A stretch of DNA of 56,687 nt, taken from Flavobacterium psychrophilum (GTDB lineage: Bacteria; Bacteroidota; Bacteroidia; Flavobacteriales; Flavobacteriaceae). The notes beneath the pieces were generated by a model that worked only from the letters and a program-made list of their open reading frames with translations, was not told where the DNA came from and searched no databases. Shown piece by piece: positions 2,398 through 42,721 of the stretch; position 1 is the stretch's first letter; every line of letters starts with the position of its first letter. The DNA lies in NCBI GenBank assembly GCA_945860385.1, contig CAMAQD010000023.1, forward strand, positions 1 to 56,687. Reading direction: 5' to 3'. The translations under genes and the position numbers were made by a program.

Positions 2398-2949
2398 ATG
2401 AACAAGACGAAAGAATATTTAATTCCATTTATAGGATTAAAGCTAGGGAAACATCATTTTGAATATCAAGTAAGTAATGCGTTCTTTGAAATCTTTGATT
2501 ATCATGAATTTAATAATTCAAATATCAAAGTAAATGTAGTTTTAGAGAAAAAAAGTACACTGATAGAGTTGGCTTTCAAGCATAAAGGAACAGTTAATGT
2601 GCCTTGCGATATGACAAACGAAGAATTTGATTTGCCAATAAAAGGTACAATGAAATTAATAGTGCGTTTTGGAGATGCTTTTAATAATGACAATGAAGAG
2701 TTGCTTATTTTGCCACACGGAGAATTTCAGATAGATATTGCACAATATATATATGAAATGATAGTGCTTTCAGTTCCTCTAAGACGAATTCATCCAGGGA
2801 TTAAAGACGGAAGTTTAAACACGGAAGCTCTGATAAAACTCAAAGAATTGACCATTAAAGAACTGAAAAAAGAGAATAAAAAAGAACAATCACAAGAAAA
2901 TATTGACCCGCGTTGGGACAAATTAAAGCAACTATTAACGGATAAATAA
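2398..2949 (+). CDS. YceD/DUF177 family protein
   Basis: 183 residues from the ATG at 2398. The reading frame is open from a TTG at 2362, but that lies in the promoter. The acidic, mostly beta protein carries the family-typical central motif PCDMTNEEFDLPIKG and a hydrophobic IDIAQYIYEMIVLSVPLR segment before a charged Lys/Glu tail. DUF177 (YceD) is almost always found immediately upstream of rpmF, as here (9-base gap). In plants and bacteria it has been linked to 23S rRNA or 50S assembly. That role is family knowledge, not visible in the sequence. The two zinc-type cysteine pairs of some homologues are not seen; only one Cys is obvious. Confidence 0.88.
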   Translation: MNKTKEYLIPFIGLKLGKHHFEYQVSNAFFEIFDYHEFNNSNIKVNVVLEKKSTLIELAFKHKGTVNVPCDMTNEEFDLPIKGTMKLIVRFGDAFNNDNEELLILPHGEFQIDIAQYIYEMIVLSVPLRRIHPGIKDGSLNTEALIKLKELTIKELKKENKKEQSQENIDPRWDKLKQLLTDK

Positions 2950-2958
2950 TATAGTAAA

Positions 2959-3153
2959 ATGGCACATCCTAAGAGAAAAATCTCCAAAACAAGAAGAGAT
3001 AAAAGAAGAACACATTACAAAGCTACCGTAGCACAAATCGCTACCTGTCCAATCACTGGAGAAGCACATTTATACCATAGAGCCTACTGGCATGAAGGTA
3101 AAATGTACTACAGAGGGCAAGTTGTTATAGATAAATCTGTAGCTGTTGCTTAA
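2959..3153 (+). CDS. rpmF: 50S ribosomal protein L32
   Basis: 64 residues, highly basic, with the L32 opening [19 protein letters not shown]. It belongs to the large subunit near the peptide exit region. The four zinc-binding cysteines of some L32 proteins are absent apart from a single Cys (ATCPITGE), so this is the zinc-independent or Bacteroidota form. Co-transcribed with the DUF177 gene and terminated by the hairpin just downstream. Confidence 0.97.
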
Positions 3154-6314: not shown

Positions 6315-6335
6315 ATGTCTAAAATTGGGAAAAAA

Positions 6336-8237
6336 TCACAGGGTTTCTTTCAACCATTTGTAAAATTCTCTATGCCAAACTAACGCATTTTGAGGTTTTA
6401 AAACCCAATGATTTTCTTCGGGAAAATACAACAATCTGCTTTTTATTCCCAGCATTTGCGCCGCTTGAAAAGCTTCTTGCCCTTGCCCAATAGGAACTCT
6501 AAAATCATTTCCGCCTTGGATGATTAATATTGGAGTATTCCATTTTTCGACAAAATTGATAGGATTAAATTTAGTGTAGGCTTTTTGCGCAATTGCATTG
6601 TCTTTTTCCCAATAAGCTCCGCCAAAATCCCAATAGTTAAAGAACACTTCTTCGGTGGTGCCAAACATACTTTGGGTATTGAAAACCCCATCGTGAGCAA
6701 TAAAAGTTTTGAATCTATTGTTGTGTATTCCAGCCAAATAAAACACTGAATATCCGCCGTAACTTGCACCGATACAACCCAAACGTGTTTTGTCAACATA
6801 TTTTTCTGTGGCCACATCATCAATCGCCGACAAATAGTCATCCATAACTTGTCCGCCCCAATCTTTGCTAATTTGTTCGTTCCATTCCACACCGTGACCG
6901 TGCATTCCACGACGATTTGGGGCGACAATAATATAACCTTGAGCTGCCATTAATTGCAAATTCCAACGGAAAGAATAAAATTGTGTCAGCGGAGATTGCG
7001 GGCCACCTTGACAATAAAGTAAGGTTGGGTATTTTTTTGATGCATCAAAATTGGGCGGTAAAACAACCCAAACCAACATTTTTTTGCCGTCGGTTGTTGT
7101 TACATATCGTCTTTCGGTTTTGCTTAACGCTAGTGAATTGTATGTTGCCGTATTGACATTAGACAATTGAAGCCAAGTTTTTTTCTTTAGATTATACGAA
7201 TAAATTTCGGCTGCGTGGTTCATATCGGTTCTGGTGACAATCATATTTTCTCCAGAAAGACAGACTAAACTTGCTACATCAAAATCGCCATTGGTCAATT
7301 GAATTACTTGCGGTAATTTCTTAGTTAAACCCGGAAAGTCAACTTCAAATAACTGAATTGTTCCGTCAATTGGCGCTTGAAAATATACTTTTTTGCCATC
7401 GGCATTCCAAAGAAAACTTTCGACAGTTCCGTCCCAATTTGCCGTTAAATTGATATTCATTCCTTTGAAACTAACAATAATATCGTTTTTATCGGCTTCA
7501 TAACCGTCGCGTTTCATTTGTAACCAAGTCAAATTTCCTGTTGGTGAAAAAGCAGGATTAGTGTCATAACCCATGTTGCCTTCGGTTCTATTGATGGTTT
7601 TTCCAGTTTCTAAATTATATTCGTAAATATCGGTATTGGTGCTAATAGCATAAGCTGTTCCTGCTTTTTTCTTGCAAACGTATAAAATGCTTTTGCTGTC
7701 TGGCGACCAAATATAATCTTCGTCTCCGCCAAAAGGTTTTTGAGGACTATCAAAATTTTCGCCTTTCAAAATGTCAATTCCAACAGCACCTTCCTTGTTT
7801 TCTTTATAAAAAACGTGATTGAATTTGCCTTCGTTCCATTTGTCCCAATGGCGATAATCTAGTCCGTTGTAGATTTGAACATTCGATTTTTCGAGTTCAG
7901 GATAATAATCTTTTCCGTGAACTTTGTCGATTTTTACTTCTTCATCGTAAACTAAATATTTCCCGTCTGGAGAAATGTTTTTGTCATTTAATAATTCTTT
8001 AGTCGAGGCAATTTCGGTTGGATTTCCTCCGTTTATTGGTAAAGTATAAAGCTTAGAATTCGATTTGTTTTCTTCAGCAGAAGGAATAGCAACTTTGTAA
8101 ACAATGTTTTTTCCATCTTTTGAAAGCCCTAAAGTGGTTACTCTCCCAAGTTTTAAAAGTAATTCTGGGGACATTGTGTTTTGTGCCATCGCATTTAAGT
8201 TCATCATTATCAGTGTTATAAATACTATTTTTTTCAT
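6336..8237 (-). CDS. Secreted S9 family peptidase (prolyl oligopeptidase type)
   Basis: 633 residues. A signal peptide (about 1-18, ending AMA before QN) points to export. A propeller-like N-terminal region with WD40/PD40-type repeats (for example WSPDSKSILYV, ISPDGKYLVYD) precedes an alpha/beta-hydrolase domain from about 390. The triad is visible: S492 in GASYGGYS, D578 in GGNDFRVP and H610 in EENHWV. Family members cleave short peptides, as dipeptidyl- or acylaminoacyl-peptidases; the exact specificity is not readable. Probably a periplasmic peptide scavenger. It appears monocistronic. Confidence 0.93.
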   Translation of the reverse strand: MKKIVFITLIMMNLNAMAQNTMSPELLLKLGRVTTLGLSKDGKNIVYKVAIPSAEENKSNSKLYTLPINGGNPTEIASTKELLNDKNISPDGKYLVYDEEVKIDKVHGKDYYPELEKSNVQIYNGLDYRHWDKWNEGKFNHVFYKENKEGAVGIDILKGENFDSPQKPFGGDEDYIWSPDSKSILYVCKKKAGTAYAISTNTDIYEYNLETGKTINRTEGNMGYDTNPAFSPTGNLTWLQMKRDGYEADKNDIIVSFKGMNINLTANWDGTVESFLWNADGKKVYFQAPIDGTIQLFEVDFPGLTKKLPQVIQLTNGDFDVASLVCLSGENMIVTRTDMNHAAEIYSYNLKKKTWLQLSNVNTATYNSLALSKTERRYVTTTDGKKMLVWVVLPPNFDASKKYPTLLYCQGGPQSPLTQFYSFRWNLQLMAAQGYIIVAPNRRGMHGHGVEWNEQISKDWGGQVMDDYLSAIDDVATEKYVDKTRLGCIGASYGGYSVFYLAGIHNNRFKTFIAHDGVFNTQSMFGTTEEVFFNYWDFGGAYWEKDNAIAQKAYTKFNPINFVEKWNTPILIIQGGNDFRVPIGQGQEAFQAAQMLGIKSRLLYFPEENHWVLKPQNALVWHREFYKWLKETL

Positions 8238-8366
8238 TGTAAATTTTGTTTGTTGTAGGAGCTAAAAATACAAATTCTATTAAGAATATTAAGATGATAT
8301 TTCAATCTAATTTTATAAAACAGAAGCATTTTTTTTTACTTTTATAAAAAATTCTGAAATAATACA

Positions 8367-9107
8367 ATGGCTACCAAAATAACAGCAAAAAAACCTAAAC
8401 CTTCATCCCAAAAAAGTACAGGTACTTTCATGAACAAAGTGACACGTTTTCTATTTAAAGCGTTGCTATGGTTTTTTGGACTGTCTATTTTTTTTGTAAT
8501 TCTATATAAATTTGTCCCAGTTCCATTTACCCCTTTGATGGTTTTTCGGGTTGTAGAAAATAAATTAGCAGGAAAGGAAAATTATTATAGCCACGATTGG
8601 GAACCTTTAGAAAATATTTCGACCAATTTGCAAAAAGCGGTAATCGCTAGTGAAGACGGTACTTTTTTGACTCATAATGGTTTCGATTTTACGGCTATGC
8701 AAAAAGCCTATAAGAACAACGAAAGAGGCCGAAGAATAAAAGGAGGAAGTACCATTTCGCAACAAACGGCCAAAAATGTTTTTCTTTGGCAAGGAAGAAG
8801 TTATCTTCGCAAAGGTCTTGAAGCTTATTTCACAGTGTTGATAGAATTAATTTGGGGTAAGGAACGCATTATGGAAGTCTATCTCAACAGTATCGAAATG
8901 GGGAATGGCGTTTATGGTGCTCAAGCCGCAACCCAACATTGGTACAGAAAAGACGCGAGCAGTCTTACAAAAATGCAAGCTGCTGGAATTGCCGCTATTT
9001 TACCTAATCCAAGGAAATATTCAGCTACAAGTTCTTCGTCATACATCAATAACAGAAAGGCCAAAATTGTCCGCATTATGAGACATATTGGCAAGATAGA
9101 GTATTAA
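8367..9107 (+). CDS. mtgA: Monofunctional peptidoglycan glycosyltransferase
   Basis: 246 residues. A basic cytoplasmic start (1-27) and one membrane helix (about 28-47) precede a GT51 domain. The EDxxF motif (SEDGTF, E96 catalytic) and [12 protein letters not shown] (about 126-137) are present, as is the helix with [16 protein letters not shown]. There is no transpeptidase domain, so it polymerises lipid II without cross-linking. It is a family relative of the PBP1C encoded at 29863. The 3' end is followed directly by a REP-like palindrome. Confidence 0.95.
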
Positions 9108-9113
9108 AAAAAA

Positions 9114-9152
9114 GTCATTGCGAGTTACAAAATTTTCGTTCCTCGCAATGAC
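9114..9152. repeat. REP-like palindrome with GTCATTGCGAG arms
   Basis: GTCATTGCGAG (9114-9124) pairs perfectly with CTCGCAATGAC (9142-9152) across a 17-base loop, between an A-run and ACAAAAAT. The minus strand continues GTCATTGCGAGGAACGAA, a sequence that recurs between genes in many bacteria and is associated with REP elements. It lies between convergent mtgA and the TonB receptor, where it could also act as a terminator. Confidence 0.8.
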
Positions 9153-9159
9153 AAAAATC

Positions 9160-11367
9160 TTAAATATTAAAATTCAATCCTAGAATTATATTTCTTCCAA
9201 TATTTGGAATACCATCTGTTTTTAGTCTGGAAAGATGTGCTGTGTATTCTTTGTCTAATAAATTATTGGCATTCAAATTTAGATCAAAAATGGTTTTTCC
9301 AAATTTTACCGTTCCGCCAAAACCAAGATTTAGCAAAGTATAGCCGTTCGATTTGGTTTCAAAACCACTTACATTATTTTGATTGAAAGTAGAGGAAACG
9401 TTCAAAGTCGCAAAACCATCTTTTAACCAGTTTTTGATTTTGAACTCAGTTCTAATGGTATTATTCCAATTGTTTGCAGGAATCAAAGGCAAATAATCTC
9501 CATTCTGTTTTTTGCCTGTAACGGTTTCAAAACTAGTTTCATAATGCAACCAATCTAACGGATGAGGATGAAAATGCAATCCGATTTCGCAACCAAATAA
9601 TTTAGCGTCATTTTGAATATAATCGAAAACAACGTTCTCGGCAATAATATCACCAGTTGGTGAAGTGTATATATAATTATTGATGTGGTTGTAAAATCCA
9701 TTAGCAAAAAACTCGAAATGGCTGCTTTTGTATTCTAAATTCAGATCGGTTTGCAGATTTTGTTCGGTTTTCAAATCGGAGTTCCCTACTTCATATCGAT
9801 TGGTTCCTTCGTGAACACCGTTTGAAGTTAGTTCTGCTAAATTGGGTGCTCTAAATCCTGAAGCTACGTTCAAACGCAAAGATAAATCCTTGTTTAAATT
9901 GGTTTTATATCCCAAAGACGCATTAAAACTGTCGAATGATTTGTCGATGGCTTTAAAAGAACCTTCCTCACCCGAAACTCCTTGGGCAGTTGTCGAGATA
10001 TTTCTGTTATCGAAACGCAATCCTGCTTGAATTGCATTCGATTTCCATTCGTAAACTCCAGTTCCAAAAAGACCAAAATCATTGGTGGTCGCATCTGGAA
10101 TTAAATATTCTTCTCCCGAATTGGCATTGGTTTGGTGCATTCCTTGAATTCCAACTATGGATTCAAAATTTCCAATTTTTGGCAAATGGTATTTTGCATC
10201 ATAATTAAAAGTTTTCAATTTCATATGCAAAACAGCGATATTTCCGTCGGCTAATTCGCTTCGATCATTATCAATATAGCCCAAATCGACGTCTAATTTT
10301 GAGTTTTTGAAGAAAAAAATATTGTTCAAACTCAGCAAATTATTGTCTATAGCTTGACTTGGAAACTGTGTTATTTTGCTTTTGGTTTGTTCGGCAAGAC
10401 CGTTTTCTGGAATTCCTAAATCCAATTTATTGAAATTATATCTAAAAACGCTCGAAAACTTCGAATTGCTATAGCCAATTCCAGTTTTGAAATCAGTTTC
10501 ATTATAACGAGTATTGGTTACTCGATCCCCTTTCGCAATTTTATAATCGGAATGGGTGTTGTAAGTTCCACGAGCCAAGAATTTCCAATTTTCAGTAGAT
10601 GTTTTCAGTCCCAAAGTTGAATTGCTTCCCAAAGTGTTAGAGAAAAATTTCTGACTGAAATTTGTTTGAAAAGTGCCTGCATTAGCAAATTTTTCTGGAT
10701 TTAAGTACAAAACGCCGCCCAAAGCATCCGATCCATAAAGCAAGGAAGCGGGGCCTTTTATGACTTCGACACTTTCTATTCCAGCGTCATTTAATCCCAA
10801 ACCGTGCTCATCGCCAAACTGTTGATTTTCCATTCGAACACCTTGAGAATAGACCAAAACCCGGTTGCCACTCAAGCCACGAATGACAGGTTTCCCAATG
10901 GAAGTTCCCGTAGAAACTTGCGAAACTCCTGGAATGGTTGCCAATCCTTCGATTAAGGTAGAGGTTCCTTTTTGTTGCAGTTCTTTGATAGTGGAATGTT
11001 CGACTTTCATCACATTTTGCGATTGAATTTTATTAAAAGCTGTCGATACAATCACTTCATCCATATGCAAAACAGTTTCTTCAAGAATAATATCGAGAAT
11101 ATTTTCTTTTTTTAGAACATTAATGGTTTTATTTTGAGTTGCAAAACCTGTGCAGGCAAAGGTCAGTTTTGCGGTTCCAGTGGAAATATTGGACAAGGTA
11201 TATTTTCCGTTTTCGTCTGTCGATGTGCCTTTGTGTAATTCTGGTGCGTAAACAGAAACGCCAATTATGGGTTTGTTTTTTACATCGAGTATTTTTCCTG
11301 TAACGGAATTTTGAGCAGATAGTATAGCTGAAAACCCAAGAATTAGGGTAATTATGAAATTTTTCAT
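9160..11367 (-). CDS. TonB-dependent outer-membrane receptor, probably for a metal
   Basis: 735 residues. In order: a signal peptide (1-18, ending LSA), a carboxypeptidase-regulatory-like domain (about 20-95), a plug (about 105-225) with IRGLSGNRVLVYSQGVRMEN and VEVIKGPASLLYGSDALGG, and a 22-strand-type barrel ending in a hydrophobic/aromatic-spaced tail (ILGLNFNI). The plug sequence GDEHGLGLNDAGIESVEVI resembles zinc or copper receptors of the ZnuD kind, a judgement from memory. It lies 85 bases downstream of a small Cys/His-rich exported protein with no promoter box between, suggesting an operon for metal uptake. The substrate is not proved. Confidence 0.9.
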   Translation of the reverse strand: MKNFIITLILGFSAILSAQNSVTGKILDVKNKPIIGVSVYAPELHKGTSTDENGKYTLSNISTGTAKLTFACTGFATQNKTINVLKKENILDIILEETVLHMDEVIVSTAFNKIQSQNVMKVEHSTIKELQQKGTSTLIEGLATIPGVSQVSTGTSIGKPVIRGLSGNRVLVYSQGVRMENQQFGDEHGLGLNDAGIESVEVIKGPASLLYGSDALGGVLYLNPEKFANAGTFQTNFSQKFFSNTLGSNSTLGLKTSTENWKFLARGTYNTHSDYKIAKGDRVTNTRYNETDFKTGIGYSNSKFSSVFRYNFNKLDLGIPENGLAEQTKSKITQFPSQAIDNNLLSLNNIFFFKNSKLDVDLGYIDNDRSELADGNIAVLHMKLKTFNYDAKYHLPKIGNFESIVGIQGMHQTNANSGEEYLIPDATTNDFGLFGTGVYEWKSNAIQAGLRFDNRNISTTAQGVSGEEGSFKAIDKSFDSFNASLGYKTNLNKDLSLRLNVASGFRAPNLAELTSNGVHEGTNRYEVGNSDLKTEQNLQTDLNLEYKSSHFEFFANGFYNHINNYIYTSPTGDIIAENVVFDYIQNDAKLFGCEIGLHFHPHPLDWLHYETSFETVTGKKQNGDYLPLIPANNWNNTIRTEFKIKNWLKDGFATLNVSSTFNQNNVSGFETKSNGYTLLNLGFGGTVKFGKTIFDLNLNANNLLDKEYTAHLSRLKTDGIPNIGRNIILGLNFNI

Positions 11368-11452: not shown

Positions 11453-11803
11453 TTAAACAATAAAAACCGGGGGAGCACGAAGCGCAAAAAGGCTTCCTTT
11501 AAAAAATTGGGTTATTTCCCTGGATTTAAAAAAAGAATATCCAGAAGAAAATGTTGTTTTTTGGAATTCAAAATGCTGAATATCCGCGGTTACAAAACTG
11601 CTTACAGTAAAATTACACACAAAACAATGTTCTACATTATGATGCTGGTGCGTAATTTCTTGGCGTGAATTGTGTCTATGGTGGCATTCTTTTTCAGAAA
11701 GTTGTTTTGCCAGATGTTCATAACTATGCATAAACTGGAACAGCATTGAAAACAATACGGCAACTGTTAATACAGAATTTACTATAACAAATTTCTTTTT
11801 CAT
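11453..11803 (-). CDS. Small exported Cys/His-rich protein, possible metal binder
   Basis: 116 residues from the ATG at 11803. An upstream in-frame start at 11827 would place the promoter inside the gene. A hydrophobic N-terminal segment (about 6-24) acts as signal or anchor. Then come the ligand-rich residues ECHHRHNSRQ, THQHHNVEHC and CFVC: three cysteines and many histidines within about 35 residues. The C-terminus LFALRAPPVFIV resembles a common ending (LRxPP) of Bacteroidota proteins found beside metal-related TonB receptors. Function unknown; metal binding or sensing at the periplasmic face is inferred from ligands and neighbour. Confidence 0.75.
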   Translation of the reverse strand: MKKKFVIVNSVLTVAVLFSMLFQFMHSYEHLAKQLSEKECHHRHNSRQEITHQHHNVEHCFVCNFTVSSFVTADIQHFEFQKTTFSSGYSFFKSREITQFFKGSLFALRAPPVFIV

Positions 11804-11894: not shown

Positions 11895-12884
11895 TTAAAC
11901 CAAATTATGTGCTACCAAATATTGTGCTATTTGAATGGTGTTTGTTGCAGCTCCTTTTCTCAAATTATCTGCTACAATCCACATATTTAAGGTGTTCGGT
12001 TGGCTTTCGTCACGACGAATTCTACCTACAAAAACGTCATTTTTTCCTTCGGAATATCTTGGCATTGGATAGGTAAAAGTGTCTAGATTGTCTTGAACCA
12101 CGATGCCATCGGTCTGGCTCAAAATTGTTCTTACTTCGTTCACGTCAAAATCAGTACTGAATTCAACATTTACTGCTTCGCTATGTCCGCCAACTACTGG
12201 AACACGAACTGCTGTTGCAGTTACTGCAATGCTGTTGTCTCCTAATATTTTTTTGGTTTCATTAGACAATTTCATTTCTTCTTTGGTGTAACCATTGGGT
12301 TCAAAACTATCGCATTGTGGAATACAATTGCGGTTGATTTTGTATTTATAAACCATATCGCCTTCAATTCCTGCACATTCATTTTCGAATTGTTGCACCG
12401 CTTTTACACCCGTTCCAGTGATGGATTGGTAAGTAGAAACCACAACACGTTTGATGTTGTATTTTTTGTGCAAAGGCGCTAAAGCCAACACCATCTGAAT
12501 AGTAGAACAATTTGGATTGGCTATGATTTTATCTTCTTTTGTCAATTCATTTGCGTTGATTTCAGGAACGATTAATTTTTTGGTTGGATCCATTCTCCAA
12601 GCCGAAGAGTTGTCGATTACCGTAGTTCCAGCCGCAGCAAATTTTGGCGCCCAATCTAATGAAGTTTGACCTCCAGCCGAAAAAACAGCTATATCTGCTT
12701 TCATATCAACTGCGGTTTGTAATCCGACAACGGTGTGTTTTTGTCCTTTGAATTCAATTATTTTTCCAACTGATTTTTCAGAAGCAACCAAGATTAATTG
12801 GGTGTAAGGAAAATTTGTTTCTTCTATTACTTTTAACATTATTTCGCCGACCATTCCTGTGGCACCTACAATTGCAAGTTTCAT
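11895..12884 (-). CDS. asd: Aspartate-semialdehyde dehydrogenase
   Basis: 329 residues from the ATG at 12884. The frame is open to 12941, but a -7 box lies between, so the extra 19 residues are not translated. The enzyme reduces aspartyl phosphate to the semialdehyde using NADPH, feeding lysine, diaminopimelate, threonine and methionine. The N-terminal nucleotide loop AIVGATGMVG and catalytic C126 in ANPNCSTIQM are clear, as are GGHSEAVNVEF and the helix ending in NTIQIAQYLV. Its partner kinase is encoded at 48165, not nearby. Confidence 0.97.
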   Translation of the reverse strand: MKLAIVGATGMVGEIMLKVIEETNFPYTQLILVASEKSVGKIIEFKGQKHTVVGLQTAVDMKADIAVFSAGGQTSLDWAPKFAAAGTTVIDNSSAWRMDPTKKLIVPEINANELTKEDKIIANPNCSTIQMVLALAPLHKKYNIKRVVVSTYQSITGTGVKAVQQFENECAGIEGDMVYKYKINRNCIPQCDSFEPNGYTKEEMKLSNETKKILGDNSIAVTATAVRVPVVGGHSEAVNVEFSTDFDVNEVRTILSQTDGIVVQDNLDTFTYPMPRYSEGKNDVFVGRIRRDESQPNTLNMWIVADNLRKGAATNTIQIAQYLVAHNLV

Positions 12885-15962: not shown

Positions 15963-16152
15963 AGTAAAACTAAAAATTCTGTTGGTATCATTACTGGAAT
16001 TTCGGAGTCTACGAAATTAAAAAAAATGGTTGTCAATAATGATTTTTGTATGTATAAAAATACAGAAAAAACTTTACAATAAATAAAAAATTAGCTTTTT
16101 TCTAACTAAAAATAATTCCAGAATTATAAATTTTTAGAGAAGTTTTGGAAAA

Positions 16153-16743
16153 CTATTTCTCCTCATCTTTTTTCATCGCATAAAAATACGCAGCACGACT
16201 CAAGGGTTCGTATTCTTCAGTTTCACCGAGCATAACGAGTTTGTCATTATCGGTTTTTCTAAAACTGTAATTGGCTAAATTTCCTGTTCGAGTGCAAACG
16301 GCATGAACTTTTGTCACATATTCGGCTGTAGCCATTAATGCTGGCATTGGTCCAAAAGGGTTTCCCTTGAAATCCATATCTAATCCAGCTACAATGACAC
16401 GAATGCCTTGATTTGCCAAATCATTGCAAATTTTCACGATTTCGTCATCAAAAAACTGTGCTTCGTCAATACCAACAACATCGCAACCTTGTGCCAAAAT
16501 AGCAATGTTTGCGGCTGCTGGAACTGGTGTGGAGCGAATTTCGTTGGCATCGTGGGATACAACCATTTCGTCATGATAACGGGTATCAATGGCAGGCTTG
16601 AAAATTTCTACTTTTTGTTTGGCAAATTGCGCTCGTTTTAGTCTGCGAATAAGTTCTTCGGTTTTACCTGAAAACATCGAACCGCAAATAACTTCGATCC
16701 AACCAAATTGTTCTTTATGATTTACTGTATTTTCGAGAAACAT
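16153..16743 (-). CDS. tdk: Thymidine kinase
   Basis: 196 residues, type II (TK1-like) thymidine kinase for pyrimidine salvage. The phosphate-binding loop [11 protein letters not shown] (about 21-31) is clear, as is the DEAQFFDD acid motif (about 93-100). There is a C-terminal lid region with [15 protein letters not shown] and the substrate motif [10 protein letters not shown]. Only one of the zinc cysteines usual in this family is obvious (C in VCTRT). It has a -7 box TAAATTTG at 16804-16797 on the minus strand. Confidence 0.95.
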
Positions 16744-37604: not shown

Positions 37605-38171
37605 ATGCTAAAAAAACAAGTTGCAATTGCTGTACTTTTAATAGTGTTATTTACTGTTTTTAGCTGTAAAGACGAAGTTTTACCAAAACCCGCAAGCTAT
37701 TTGAGATTGGATTATCCCGAGGCTGAATATGTGTATTTTGAAAATAGCGCTTCGCCATTTGCATTCGAAATGAATTCAGAAGCGATAATCAAAGGTGGTA
37801 AAGATGGTGGTTTTACAATTACTTACCCAAAAATGAAAGCCACGATTTATTTGACTTATAAACCCGTGAATAATGATATCAATAAATTATTGCGAGACGC
37901 TCAAAAACTAACCTACGAACACGTAATAAAAGCCGATGATATTCTGGAACAGCCATATTTAAATCCTACCAAAAAAGTTTATGGAATGTTTTATCAAGTT
38001 GATGGGAACGCAGCCACAAACTCGCAGTTTTACGTTACCGATAGCATCAAACATTTTGTAACAGGCTCGGTTTATTTCTATGCAAAACCCAATTTCGATT
38101 CAATTATGCCAGCAGCAAGTTACGTTCGAAACGATATGCAAAGGTTGATGGAAACTTTGAAGTGGAAGTAG
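37605..38171 (+). CDS. gldD: Gliding-motility lipoprotein GldD
   Basis: 188 residues from the ATG at 37605 (a TTG at 37590, overlapping gldE, is less likely). Lipoprotein signal with box VFSC (Cys about 18). The mature part has YLRLDYPEAEY, FTITYPKMKATIYLTY and a C-terminal MPAASYVRNDMQRLMETLKW. GldD is needed for gliding in F. johnsoniae, as shown by mutants. It is odd that the last 13 codons and stop have a diverged second copy at 38995-39036. Confidence 0.93.
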   Translation: MLKKQVAIAVLLIVLFTVFSCKDEVLPKPASYLRLDYPEAEYVYFENSASPFAFEMNSEAIIKGGKDGGFTITYPKMKATIYLTYKPVNNDINKLLRDAQKLTYEHVIKADDILEQPYLNPTKKVYGMFYQVDGNAATNSQFYVTDSIKHFVTGSVYFYAKPNFDSIMPAASYVRNDMQRLMETLKWK

Positions 38172-38281
38172 TCAGGAATTTGAGTAATTTAATAGTCGAA
38201 CTAATTACAAAAATGTTCTCAAGTAAATGTGCAGTCGTATTTGTTTATCCGAGTACAACAAAACTAATAAACTTAAAACAG

Positions 38282-38980
38282 ATGAAACATCTACATTTTA
38301 TAATCATTGCCGCAATTCTTATGATAAGTTGTGCATCTAGATCTGATAAAAGCATAATTGTTCAAACTAGTCCAATTAGTCAAATTAATGACACACTCAT
38401 TGAAAAATATGCAGTAGTCAGTGATTTTTTAGACACAAAAATTAAAGACCGCTCTAAAAAAATTATGATTCTTAGTAAAAAAATCAATACCAATACCACC
38501 TTACATATTCTTAAGCTAAATGATATTTATGAATTGGATTCTATAACCGGAAAGTACAAGGAAGATAAAACATTTTATAAAGAAGCAGAGTGGGAAATAG
38601 CAAGAAGAAAATACAGCAAAAACTCTGTAGCAGAAATAGAAAATGCTACTGATCGAGATTTAGAATGTTGCTGGGTTGCAGAGAATTTTAACTATAAAAA
38701 TGTAATTTTTGAAGAATCACTACCTGGCTCAACAACTTTTATTGAAAAATATATGTCTTCGAAAGTAACGGATATTGATGCGAATTTTTTCAATACGCGT
38801 AATTATGATTTTTATTTTTTTTCGGAACCTATCTATTATCAAAATAGAGAATGTTTAATTTTTACTTTTTCTGAAGGCTATATTGATGGTTTGAGTGGTA
38901 GTTCATATATTATAATATATAAAAAGAAAAATGGCAAATGGGTTCAAACGCACAAAGGAATGCCAAATTGGATTAGTTGA
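38282..38980 (+). CDS. Unknown lipoprotein inserted after gldD
   Basis: 232 residues from the ATG at 38282. The open frame extends upstream to 38162, inside the end of gldD, but the lipoprotein signal begins here (MKHLHFIIIAAILMISCAS; lipid Cys about 17). The mature part is Lys- and Asp-rich, with KMGMP-like end HKGMPNWIS, a WVAENF motif, and a C-terminal beta-pair SSYIIIYKKKNGKW. I do not recognise the family. It is bracketed by gldD tail sequence on both sides, which suggests insertion as a cassette. No partner gene is nearby. Confidence 0.7.
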   Translation: MKHLHFIIIAAILMISCASRSDKSIIVQTSPISQINDTLIEKYAVVSDFLDTKIKDRSKKIMILSKKINTNTTLHILKLNDIYELDSITGKYKEDKTFYKEAEWEIARRKYSKNSVAEIENATDRDLECCWVAENFNYKNVIFEESLPGSTTFIEKYMSSKVTDIDANFFNTRNYDFYFFSEPIYYQNRECLIFTFSEGYIDGLSGSSYIIIYKKKNGKWVQTHKGMPNWIS

Positions 38981-38994
38981 AAATATTTAGAACA

Positions 38995-39036
38995 AACGAT
39001 ATGCAGCGTTTGAGGGAGACTTTGAAGTGGAAATAA
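38995..39036 (+). pseudogene. gldD: Detached second copy of the gldD 3' end
   Basis: Encodes NDMQRLRETLKWK and stop. The tail of gldD (38130-38171) reads NDMQRLMETLKWK and stop. The two differ at 7 of 42 bases, and six of these are synonymous (including TAG/TAA). It is not in a translated gene here. Confidence 0.85.
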
Positions 39037-39040
39037 AAGG

Positions 39041-39084
39041 ATAAGGCAAATGTATTTTAGTTTTTTTTAAAGTGTTTGCCTTAT
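39041..39084. other. Inverted repeat after the gldD remnant
   Basis: ATAAGGCAAA (39041-39050) pairs perfectly with TTTGCCTTAT (39075-39084) over a 24-base loop containing a long T-run. It may be the original gldD operon terminator. Confidence 0.55.
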
Positions 39085-39154
39085 AAATCTAACAGATATC
39101 CGGTCAATTGTTAAATGTTTTTGTAGATTTACGACTAAAATTAATTTAACTCAA

Positions 39155-41302
39155 ATGAGAAATAAATCCCTTTTCATATTGTTGGTCATTGGAAATCTGC
39201 TAACAATTGAAGCTCAAGAAAAAAAAGAGAATACCACTATGAATCCATTCTTCCAGGCTTACGACACACCTTTCAATGTGCCGCCTTTCGACAAAATTAA
39301 AAACGAACATTTTAAACCCGCTATTTTAGAAGGAATAAAAAAACACCAAGAGGAGATTGATGCGATTGCTAATGCTTCTGCGGCCCCCACTTTTGAAAAC
39401 ACCATTCTAGCAATGGAAAATGCAGGAGAATTACTGTCGAATGTGAATGTAGTTTTTTCGAACCTTAATTCGGCAAACACCAACAAGGAAATTCAGAATA
39501 TTGCCAAAGAAACTGCCCCAAATCTATCGGCACACCGAGATAACATTTACCTTAACGAAAAATTATTTGCAAGAGTAAAAGCACTTTGGGATAAAAAAGA
39601 AACCTTGGGTTTGAATTTGGAACAAGCAAAAATTCTAGACAATTCTTATAAAGACTTTGTTCGAAGCGGAGCTAATTTATCGGATTCGGATAAAGGAATA
39701 TTAAGAAAAATCAACGGTGAACTTTCGCTTACCAGTTTGAAATACGGCCAGAATATTTTGGCTGAAACCAATAAATATGAATTGGTTATTGAATCCAAAA
39801 AAGATTTGGCAGGTTTGCCACAAGGATTGATAGATGCCGCCGCAGCTGATGCTAAAGCAAAAGGAAAAGAAGGAAAATGGATTTTCACACTTTCAAATTC
39901 GAGTGTGATGCCGTTTTTGCAATACAGTTCCAATAGAGAATTGCGGAAACAAATTTGGAATGCCTATCAAACCAGAGGAAACCACGACGATGATTTGGAC
40001 AACAAGAAAAACGCAGTGGAATTAGCTAATCTTCGTGGTCAAAAAGCACGATTGTTAGGCTATAAATCACATTCAAATTATGTGCTTGAAGAATCGATGG
40101 CTAAAACTCCGGAAAATGTAAACAAGCTTTTGAATGATTTATGGAAACCAGCTTTGGAAATTGCCAAAACGGAAGCTTCGGATATTCAAAAAATGATGAT
40201 TAAGGATGGAATTAAAGGAGCTGTTCAACCTTATGATTGGAGATATTATACCGAAAAAATCAGAAAAGAACGTTTCGATTTAGACGAGGAAGAGTTAAAA
40301 CCATATTTCAGTTTAGAGAATGTTAGAAAGGGCGTTTTTCAGGTCACCGGAAAATTATACGGCATACAATTCAAGGAGTTGAATGATGTTCCAAAATACC
40401 ATCCAGACGCATCAGTTTGGGAAGTGACAGAAGCCAATGGAACTCTTGTAGGTGTTATCTATATGGACTTTTTTCCAAGAGATTCAAAACGTGGTGGTGC
40501 TTGGATGACTTCCTACAGAACTCAGAAAACGGTTGACGGCAAACGATTGGCGCCAGTGATTTCGATTGTTTGTAATTTCACCAAACCATCGGGAGATACT
40601 CCTGCTCTTTTAACTTTCGATGAAGTGTCAACTTTCTTTCACGAATTTGGACACGCTTTGCACGGATTATTGTCGAATGTGACTTACCGAAGTTTAGCAG
40701 GAACAAGTGTTCCAAGAGATTTCGTGGAATTGCCTTCGCAAATTATGGAAAACTGGGCTGCTGAACCAGAAGTTTTAAAAATGTATGCGAAACATTATAA
40801 AACAGGCGAAGTTATCCCGGAAGCTTTAGTAAATAAATTGAAAAAAGCGGGAACTTTCGACCAAGGTTTCGCCACAACCGAATATCTTGCCGCATCCTTG
40901 TTGGATTTGGCCTATCATTCACAAACCAAAGATATTACAACTGATGCCAACACTTTCGAAAAAGCGGCGATGACAAAAATTGGTTTAATTGAGTCCATTA
41001 TTCCAAGATACAGAAGCACCTATTTCAGTCACATATTTTCTGGCGGCTATTCTTCAGGATATTACAGCTATATCTGGTCTGGAGTTTTGGATACCGATGC
41101 TTTTGAAGTTTTTAAAACCACTACTTTATTCAATCCCGAAAAGGCAAAATCATTCCGTGAGAATGTTTTAGAAAAAGGAGGAACCGAAGATCCGATGGTT
41201 TTATACAAACGTTTCCGTGGTGCAGAACCAAGTATAGAGCCCTTGTTGAGAAAACGTGGATTAGACAAAAAAGAAGAACCACTTAAAAAAGTGAGAGGAT
41301 AA
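39155..41302 (+). CDS. dcp: M3 family peptidyl-dipeptidase
   Basis: 715 residues. A signal peptide (1-20, ending IEA) indicates export. The M3 zinc metallopeptidase motif HEFGH is at 496-500 (FFHEFGHALHG), with the downstream Glu of the family in SQIMENWAAEPEVL. N-terminal NPFFQAYDTPFNVPPF is characteristic of Dcp. It removes dipeptides from C-termini. The upstream gap includes only a variant -7 box TAGATTTA. It ends with a strong terminator. Confidence 0.96.
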   Translation: MRNKSLFILLVIGNLLTIEAQEKKENTTMNPFFQAYDTPFNVPPFDKIKNEHFKPAILEGIKKHQEEIDAIANASAAPTFENTILAMENAGELLSNVNVVFSNLNSANTNKEIQNIAKETAPNLSAHRDNIYLNEKLFARVKALWDKKETLGLNLEQAKILDNSYKDFVRSGANLSDSDKGILRKINGELSLTSLKYGQNILAETNKYELVIESKKDLAGLPQGLIDAAAADAKAKGKEGKWIFTLSNSSVMPFLQYSSNRELRKQIWNAYQTRGNHDDDLDNKKNAVELANLRGQKARLLGYKSHSNYVLEESMAKTPENVNKLLNDLWKPALEIAKTEASDIQKMMIKDGIKGAVQPYDWRYYTEKIRKERFDLDEEELKPYFSLENVRKGVFQVTGKLYGIQFKELNDVPKYHPDASVWEVTEANGTLVGVIYMDFFPRDSKRGGAWMTSYRTQKTVDGKRLAPVISIVCNFTKPSGDTPALLTFDEVSTFFHEFGHALHGLLSNVTYRSLAGTSVPRDFVELPSQIMENWAAEPEVLKMYAKHYKTGEVIPEALVNKLKKAGTFDQGFATTEYLAASLLDLAYHSQTKDITTDANTFEKAAMTKIGLIESIIPRYRSTYFSHIFSGGYSSGYYSYIWSGVLDTDAFEVFKTTTLFNPEKAKSFRENVLEKGGTEDPMVLYKRFRGAEPSIEPLLRKRGLDKKEEPLKKVRG

Positions 41303-41321
41303 AAAACTTAGTTTTTTAAAT

Positions 41322-41360
41322 AAAAAACCTGCAACATTAAAATTGTGTTGCAGGTTTTTT
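41322..41360 (+). terminator. Terminator after dcp
   Basis: Fifteen-base arms (41322-41336 and 41346-41360) around CCTGCAACA/TGTTGCAGG with a T-run. Confidence 0.9.
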
Positions 41361-41380
41361 TTGTTTTTATCAAGGAATAG

Positions 41381-41743
41381 TTATCCGTGATATACACGCG
41401 AAAAAACAATTTTATCTTCTTTTATTTCTAGAACTTCAGCAATAAGCATATCGTTTTCACCTTGTACGGTTCTTACATATTCCATAAAAACCCGATTCTC
41501 ATTTGCGGTAAGCGAAGTTACTTTGTAATGCAAGCTTGGCAACTGCTCAAAGGCTTCTTGCCACCAATCGTGTAGCGATTGTTTTCCTTTTACCAAACCA
41601 TTGGTTTCTGGTTTTTTGATTTTAAGTTTTGGACTAAAATGTTCCGCATCATCATCATACAAAGACAAAAGTTGTTCCAGTTTATGGTCATTGAAGGCTT
41701 CAAACCATTTGTGTGCGATTGATAAATTCTTAGTAGAGGTCAT
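41381..41743 (-). CDS. NTF2-like (SnoaL-type) protein
   Basis: 120 residues. An alpha+beta cone fold: helix IAHKWFEAFNDHKLEQLLSLY, then DDDAEHFSPKL, a GKQSLHDWWQEAFEQLPSLHY segment and strands NRVFMEYVRTVQG. Such proteins are small ligand-binding or isomerase-like folds; no substrate is readable. It begins 20 bases after the convergent dcp terminator and lies downstream of the pseudouridine synthase terminator, so it is a separate transcript. Confidence 0.8.
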   Translation of the reverse strand: MTSTKNLSIAHKWFEAFNDHKLEQLLSLYDDDAEHFSPKLKIKKPETNGLVKGKQSLHDWWQEAFEQLPSLHYKVTSLTANENRVFMEYVRTVQGENDMLIAEVLEIKEDKIVFSRVYHG

Positions 41744-41760
41744 ATTTTGTGGTTAAAAAG

Positions 41761-41792
41761 AAAATTCCCGCTTGAAAAAGAACGGGAATTTT
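41761..41792 (-). terminator. Terminator of the pseudouridine synthase gene
   Basis: AAAATTCCCG (41761-41770) pairs with CGGGAATTTT (41783-41792). Confidence 0.8.
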
Positions 41793-41815
41793 AATTAAAA
41801 TTGTATTTGAAAAAC

Positions 41816-42721
41816 TTATACGTTTTTCAAATTGATAATTTCTTGTTCGGTAAGCAATCTCCAGTTTCCTCTTGGTAAATTCTTTTTAGTCAAACCTGCA
41901 AAAGCAACTCTGTCAATTCTCAAAACATCATAACTAAAGTTTTCGAAAATAGAGCGAACTACTTTAACATTGGCTGATCTTAATTTCAAACCAATTTCGC
42001 TTTTTGCTTCTCCTTCAATATAACTTATATCTTCAACAAAAACACGGTGTCCGTCAAGAACAAGTCCTTTGTTTATTTTTTCTAAATCCTCGAATTTTAA
42101 GTTTTTATCCAATGAAACCTGATAAATTTTTGATGATTTGTTAGTTGGTAACGTAAACTTGCGCATCATATCAGTGTCGTTGGTAAACAACAACAATCCA
42201 GTTGTATTTTTATCCATTCTTCCAACAGGGCCTATTTTTGCTGTTGTTGAACCTTTTACCAATTCCAAAACATTGCGGTATTCCTGACCTTCGTCGAGTG
42301 CGGTTGTAAAGTTTTTTGGTTTGTTCAATAAGATGTACACTTTTTTCTCTGGCGTTAAAACCGCTCCGTCAAAATTCACAACATCGCCGGGTTTTACCAT
42401 ATAACCCATTTCGGTTACAGGAATTCCATTTACTTTTACGTTTCCAGATTGGATATAAATATCGGCATCACGACGAGAACAAACACCAGAATTAGAGATG
42501 TATTTGTTCAAACGAATTTCGTCTTTTACTTTAGGTCTTTTTGGTGCCTGATTTGGTTTTTTTTCTACCTTGTCAGTTGTATCTGCAACTTTAACAATTG
42601 TCTTTACTTTTTTAGGCCCTTGTGCCCTTTTTTGCATCGCAGGTTTTGGCTTATTGGAGCTTGGTCTAGAACTGTTTGCTCTGCCACCGCTTTTATTATT
42701 GTTGCCTTCCTTGTTATTCAT
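41816..42721 (-). CDS. rRNA pseudouridine synthase (RsuA/RluB type)
   Basis: 301 residues. A Lys/Asn/Pro-rich basic N-terminus of about 65 residues, variable in Bacteroidota homologues, precedes an S4 RNA-binding domain (RLNKYISNSGVCSRRDADIYI, about 71-91). The catalytic aspartate is D170 in GRMDKNTTGLLLFT. The subfamily (RluB, RluE or RsuA) cannot be fixed from this. It has a -7 box TATCTTTG at 42748-42741 and is followed by the second copy of the structured element upstream. Confidence 0.92.
   Translation of the reverse strand: MNNKEGNNNKSGGRANSSRPSSNKPKPAMQKRAQGPKKVKTIVKVADTTDKVEKKPNQAPKRPKVKDEIRLNKYISNSGVCSRRDADIYIQSGNVKVNGIPVTEMGYMVKPGDVVNFDGAVLTPEKKVYILLNKPKNFTTALDEGQEYRNVLELVKGSTTAKIGPVGRMDKNTTGLLLFTNDTDMMRKFTLPTNKSSKIYQVSLDKNLKFEDLEKINKGLVLDGHRVFVEDISYIEGEAKSEIGLKLRSANVKVVRSIFENFSYDVLRIDRVAFAGLTKKNLPRGNWRLLTEQEIINLKNV

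Follow-up and report, generated by a model that had tools for sequence, protein, structure and literature searches.

In the window (the whole stretch of 56,687 nucleotides that was analysed), the 3′ end of the gene gldD occurs twice, once as the end of an intact, working gene and once as a short repeat lying behind a single lipoprotein gene, here called lip. Most simply, the second of these ends would be the old gldD end, now dead, and the end of the working gene would be the newcomer. The best explanation, and in our judgement a reasonably probable one, is a capture event in which one side of an incoming fragment paired with gldD by homology while its far side was joined illegitimately, so that a probable orphan immunity gene was left between the new gldD end and the old. 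Gene-end scars of the same kind are found around relatives of lip at several other genes. The features of the locus are:

37605..38171, + strand: gldD, intact, an ORF read from ATG (Pfam GldD_lipo PF25593, E 6.5e-64)
38130..38171, + strand: tail 1, the closing 13 codons and stop codon of the working gldD
38172..38281, + strand: leader of 110 bases from gldD to the lipoprotein gene, with no terminator-like fold (z -0.25)
38282..38980, + strand: lip, a gene for a 232-aa lipoprotein (lipobox found by eye), probable orphan immunity gene
38981..38994, + strand: joint from cargo to gldD remnant, 14 bases after the lip stop codon
38995..39036, + strand: tail 2, the apparent remnant of an older gldD end
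39041..39084, + strand: terminator-like hairpin, apparently the original gldD 3′ flank, in the same place in L014
39155..41302, + strand: M3 family peptidase gene (PF01432, E 2.3e-136), the presumed downstream neighbour of gldD in an L014-like ancestor

The first-pass annotation had reported that the closing 13 codons and stop codon of gldD recur at 38995-39036 and that six of the seven differences between the copies are synonymous; coordinates and count are both right. Compared by identity over their 42 bases, the tails agree at 35, and the one non-synonymous difference turns ATG into AGG (Met to Arg). A repeat finder returned the same repeat shifted one base to the left (86%), and blastn self-comparison over 16 kb gave it an E value of 2e-7. 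The similarity is above chance, because when each of 80 other gldD loci is searched with its own tail, the best second match reaches 21 to 26 of the 42 bases. In a simulation of tails identical at birth and changing without constraint, the probability of seeing one or no non-synonymous change in seven was 1e-4 (2 in 20,000); with an assumed 60% non-synonymous share, representing constraint on the working copy, it was 0.019.

Which of the tails is the older can be approached through L014 (loci are numbered with an L), a contig of the metagenome-assembled genome (MAG) of Flavobacterium sp. BC.034, genome G001, where a single gldD tail is followed by the M3 gene. Tail 2 matches this sole tail at 40/42 bases, the top score among the 80 loci, and it carries the L014 base at five of the seven positions at which the window tails differ. 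Window positions 38994-42027, taking in tail 2, the hairpin region and the M3 gene, align to L014 in one piece at 90.6%. Since tail 2 runs on into its flank as in L014, and has the L014 base at those five positions, we consider tail 2 to be the older end; and because six of the seven differences are also synonymous, both tails look like alleles that already differed before the event. Of the two remaining tail 2 differences, the Met-to-Arg change occurs in 0/80 relatives, all 80 of which have ATG, and the other base is present in 9/80, so that tail 2 reads as a dead remnant. This bears out the earlier suggestion that the second copy is the end of a once-functional, diverged gldD, since tail 2 and its flank align to the single gldD end of L014.

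One side of the insert is thus continuous with a homologous gldD allele: gldD runs intact through tail 1, and tail 2 with its flank is L014-like. Window identity to L014 is 79.7% to the left of the cassette and 90.6% to the right, a step to be read beside the variation in identity to G001 elsewhere in the window (82%, 90%, 81% and 87%); identity to L001 is 86.0% to the left and 89.5% to the right. The insert itself (38172-38994) holds one gene only. Resemblance of the leader to the leaders of relatives is confined to its last 25 or so bases, homology of the window to other lip loci begins at 38257-38268, and alignment at the joint found no homology upstream of 38994. The inverted repeat that had been described at 39041-39084 is present and folds at -15.5 kcal/mol (z -3.5); the L014 hairpin in the same place is weaker (-7.8 kcal/mol, z -1.6).

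Among the 80 other gldD loci, of which 78 have at least 2.6 kb of sequence behind gldD and two have short flanks (834 bases in L080 and 23 bases in L060), none has lip behind gldD and none has a second gldD tail. A lip gene and second tail shared by nearly all relatives, which the first-pass annotation had named as evidence against its reading, were therefore not what we found, and L014 is a relative of the sort that it had proposed to look for, lacking lip and having a single gldD tail followed by a weaker hairpin. A few other gldD loci that were compared carry different genes behind gldD. The M3 gene (39155-41302) is itself not a universal neighbour, lying behind gldD in 3/80 loci: L001, L014 and L004, in the last of which a 591-aa gene intervenes.

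The lipoprotein gene had been described as belonging to no familiar family, and the intact 232-aa ORF indeed has no match in Pfam, nor in NCBIfam or PADLOC at E ≤ 0.1. With lip as query, a protein search found 67 relatives at E ≤ 1e-3, one of them its own copy, and at that threshold lip is present in at least 37 of 398 Flavobacterium-group genomes; a further genome set gave at least 5/395 at E ≤ 1e-30, all five already among those at least 37. From 33 of the 37 genomes, leaving out places on short contigs, 39 lip regions were fetched, and as one (L123) has no lip ORF, 38 lip loci are counted. In 19 of these lip stands directly downstream, and on the same strand, of a secreted HExxH protein, 13 of the 19 lying outside the six lip loci from which our model of this effector was built. 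The effector model matches in 25/38 loci and finds nothing in the other 13; 22/38 have more than one lip ORF; and neither the lip model nor the effector model matches in 79 control regions. This position behind the HExxH protein, the several lip copies and the absence of both families from the controls suggest that lip is probably an immunity gene and, because no effector match was found in the window, that the window copy is an orphan.

All 39 aligned secreted proteins share H351, and at least 90% of them have H347, E348 and H393, which gives a motif resembling the zincin HExxH; the protein has no Pfam match above cut-off. Its predicted structure (pLDDT 74.7) has no structural match at E ≤ 0.001; a few zinc proteases appear among the weak matches and are not counted as evidence. 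The predicted lip structure is moderate (pLDDT 76.8), with no PDB match at E ≤ 0.001 and weak NTF2/SnoaL-like matches only. Remnant-like matches to the effector model occur in L112, L114 and L117, and a TssD/Hcp gene (PF17642, E 3.4e-28) lies near the lip genes of L129, the locus in which Type VI secretion (T6SS) linkage was looked at. In a 260-aa protein, P0067, a Tae4 amidase domain (PF14113, E 7e-12) is fused to the N-terminal portion of a lip relative; this fusion, which has no genome placement and is left out of the evidence, may have arisen by recombination or through faulty assembly.

A search for lip behind other genes had been proposed, and relatives of lip were found behind recA, dprA and other gene ends; this recurrence, and the effector-immunity-like family to which lip belongs, go beyond what the first-pass annotation had seen. 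In genome G001 itself (L111), an intact recA is followed by an effector and lip cassette and then by a second recA 3′ end with a hairpin (237 bases, 92.4%). The two copies lie at 6328-6561 and 8962-9198, and the second begins at the lip stop codon; they differ by seven synonymous and four non-synonymous changes, and of 29 relatives many, though not all, are nearer to the remnant than to the working copy. In L117 the end of dprA is repeated across lip genes (106 bases, 92.5%), with the dprA remnant abutting a truncated effector gene. L129 repeats the end of a 494-aa gene across lip genes (125 bases, 88%), and in L112 a diverged epimerase-gene end (66 bases, 80%) is found again on the far side of a four-gene lip array. 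The distance from the last cargo stop codon to the start of the remnant is 0 to 14 bases in the four same-direction cases. A further repeat is present in L117, where the end of a PAS-domain gene and its downstream flank (2722-3103 and 7228-7609, 95%) enclose several small lipoprotein genes in an array, along with a protein whose JAB match is below threshold. The recA-dprA stretch (names given by eye) carries differing cassettes in L111, L114, L117, L119 and L316, and looks like a hot spot.

A uniform scan for repeats, within 6 kb, of a gene's 3′ end and no more of it gave seven in the 39 lip loci (four spanning lip, two of lip itself and one over a neighbouring array), none in the 80 gldD loci, one in 39 control regions of the same genomes (uvrA, L245) and matches in four of 40 further regions (L316, L285 and the tandem-repeat loci L280 and L287). 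The equivalent scan of 5′ ends gave one in the lip loci, which was lip itself, and two matches at one locus among 159 control loci. At L245 the uvrA 3′ end (8227-8369 and 10199-10341, 94.4%) flanks an AAA ATPase with its partner, the two matching PDC-M29, a candidate system in PADLOC, and the second end begins 10 bases past the last cargo stop codon; at L316 (F. franklandianum) a thioesterase 3′ end (10806-10871 and 11612-11677, 92.4%) flanks a HigBA-like pair (Gp49, HTH_3). The L285 match is the 3′ end of a 184-aa gene (12402-12584 and 15976-16158, 88.5%) on either side of a P-type cation ATPase gene. Leaving out the two matches that are lip itself, scars near lip number 5/582 ORFs against 5/1715 in controls that were hand-placed at round coordinates and are not random draws (one-sided P 0.08), or 5/582 against 3/1715 (P 0.029) when the tandem-repeat loci L280 and L287 are set aside. 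What we claim is recurrence of the scars, not strong enrichment; the enrichment near lip is modest.

We propose that the window descends from an L014-like ancestor with gldD, the hairpin and the M3 gene in that order, and that DNA from a related Flavobacterium, with an immunity gene behind its gldD and the effector present or not, would have come in by some route. The fragment would have paired by homology in or upstream of gldD, so that the recipient gene gained the donor 3′ end; on the reading favoured here, the 3′ part of the present gldD is the incoming copy. The other end of the fragment would have had no homology; illegitimate joining would have linked it, a few bases past the lip stop codon, to the recipient gldD at a position 13 codons short of that gene's end. 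As a result gldD would be intact, an immunity gene would have been added on the same strand, and 42 bases of the former gldD end, now dead, would stand before the old hairpin, which may now terminate the lip transcript. The gene may be retained as protection against the matching effector of neighbouring strains. One-sided homology with an illegitimate joint would explain why the gene is intact, why the tail on the anchor side differs and why the far-side tail and flank are the older; it would also explain the one-gene insert, the variety of targets and the junction of dprA remnant and truncated effector gene in L117. The two options first offered for the window, a cassette rebuilding the gldD C-terminus and recombination with a related strain, fit together as one such event. 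The donor is hypothetical: gldD beside lip was found in none of the 80 gldD loci and in none of the lip loci L081-L149. This counts against the explanation, as do the modest enrichment of scars near lip, the 13 lip loci that lack an effector match and the relatives to which the recA remnant of L111 is not the closer copy. Counting against it too is that F. johnsoniae reportedly lacks natural competence in the laboratory, which Riemerella species have (PMC7965970).

Several other events could leave a similar locus. Both tails might derive from one recipient tail, a module having copied part of its target on entry and the copies having drifted since; such insertion with long target duplication has an identical anatomy, a direct repeat of part of a gene around a small module, and two papers record it for restriction-modification genes of H. 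pylori (PMC1643837, PMC3031569). We think it unlikely for gldD, where six of seven differences are synonymous and tail 2 has the L014 base at five. Alternatively, lip might have entered later, between two gldD copies that arose by partial tandem duplication or by single-crossover integration and a subsequent deletion. This would also be expected to give a truncated second gldD, and seems quite improbable: a fresh duplicate is identical at birth, which the mainly synonymous divergence contradicts, and two events would be needed, with the same pattern arising at several genes.

About equally improbable, to our minds, is that a recombinase, working in trans or lost afterwards, integrated the cargo site-specifically at gene 3′ ends. 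Some islands carry a replacement 3′ end of their target gene, as e14 does at icd, and they typically show a rebuilt 3′ end whose differences are mostly synonymous; the close spacing of remnant and last cargo stop codon in the four same-direction cases would suit such a mechanism too. Yet the targets are several and unrelated, the repeats range from 42 to 237 bases or more, the four joints share no common motif as judged by eye, and inspection by eye of the listed ORFs on either side of the window's insert showed no recombinase. Similarly, because the target genes differ, and because lip relatives were found on no plasmid or phage record (E 1e-5) and confirmed in no viral contig, a single mobile element is disfavoured. 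Finally, chance similarity, a conserved functional signal or an assembly error could be supposed; the window joint comes from an assembled contig, and G001 is a MAG. We regard these as very improbable indeed, since the tail match far exceeds the second-best matches of the other gldD loci, those loci do without a second tail, and the same architecture occurs in the long contigs of L117 (1.42 Mb), L129 (2.34 Mb) and L245 (3.85 Mb).

Capture through one-sided homology, as favoured here, has known counterparts. Homology-facilitated illegitimate recombination is reported for naturally competent bacteria and for E. coli conjugation (PMC3240628, PMC2884548); those cases are experimental and in other bacteria, whereas ours is inferred from sequence and has no donor. 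It has been proposed for the orphan T6SS immunity arrays of Vibrio cholerae (Kirchberger et al. 2017, PMC5361080), and in the pandemic lineage a second crossover is placed at the 3′ end of an immunity gene (PMC9711863). The V. cholerae arrays resemble our loci in having effector-less immunity genes, effector remnants, one homologous anchor and one illegitimate joint. The anchor there is described as the T6SS cluster (vgrG, chaperone, effector); in Flavobacterium a gene of housekeeping or motility (gldD, recA, dprA) takes this role, and its broken 3′ end is the mark that is left.

The repeats around our modules, of 42 bases at gldD, 237 at recA (L111) and 106 at dprA (L117), invite comparison with the insertion with long target duplication reportedly described by Nobusato et al. 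in 2000. The likeness lies in small toxin-antitoxin-like modules inside a long direct target repeat, in the H. pylori papers (PMC1643837, PMC3031569), which regard the repeats as copied from the target; the gldD tails, in contrast, look like differing alleles, and their synonymous excess (P 1e-4 to 0.019, by null) does not fit an origin of both as copies of one target. Both the one-sided-homology process and long target duplication are already published. What looks new here is the anchoring of such cargo in housekeeping genes, not in an effector cluster; among the papers searched, none linked Flavobacterium with orphan immunity. Minimal mobile elements are alternative cassettes between the same conserved neighbours. 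The varying genes behind gldD among relatives are reminiscent of these, although minimal mobile elements do not by themselves predict a broken duplicate of the flanking gene.

That such scars recur at several genes, around cargo of toxin-immunity, toxin-antitoxin and candidate defence type, adds to the finding in the window. We tentatively raise a wider idea, which we hold to be doubtful as yet: that Flavobacterium has a general, integrase-free class of small cassettes which enter the 3′ ends of housekeeping genes. These might carry orphan immunity genes, effector-immunity pairs, toxin-antitoxin pairs or candidate defence pairs; they would rebuild the host gene with the allele that they bring and leave a 3′ scar whose start lies at most about 15 bases from the last cargo stop codon, with cargo able to borrow host transcription and terminator, and with scars offering homology to later exchanges, so that these gene ends would become docking sites.

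Gene-end scars offer a readable record of how, with no mobile-element machinery, immunity and defence genes enter a genome. The foreign copy can be recognised from synonymous divergence between the tails, and one-sided capture can in this way be told apart from true target duplication, which matters for the similar pattern in Helicobacter as well. If the process is genus-wide, scanning for scars would list gains of defence and immunity genes and lead to new families, such as the unnamed effector-immunity-like pair of the lip loci.
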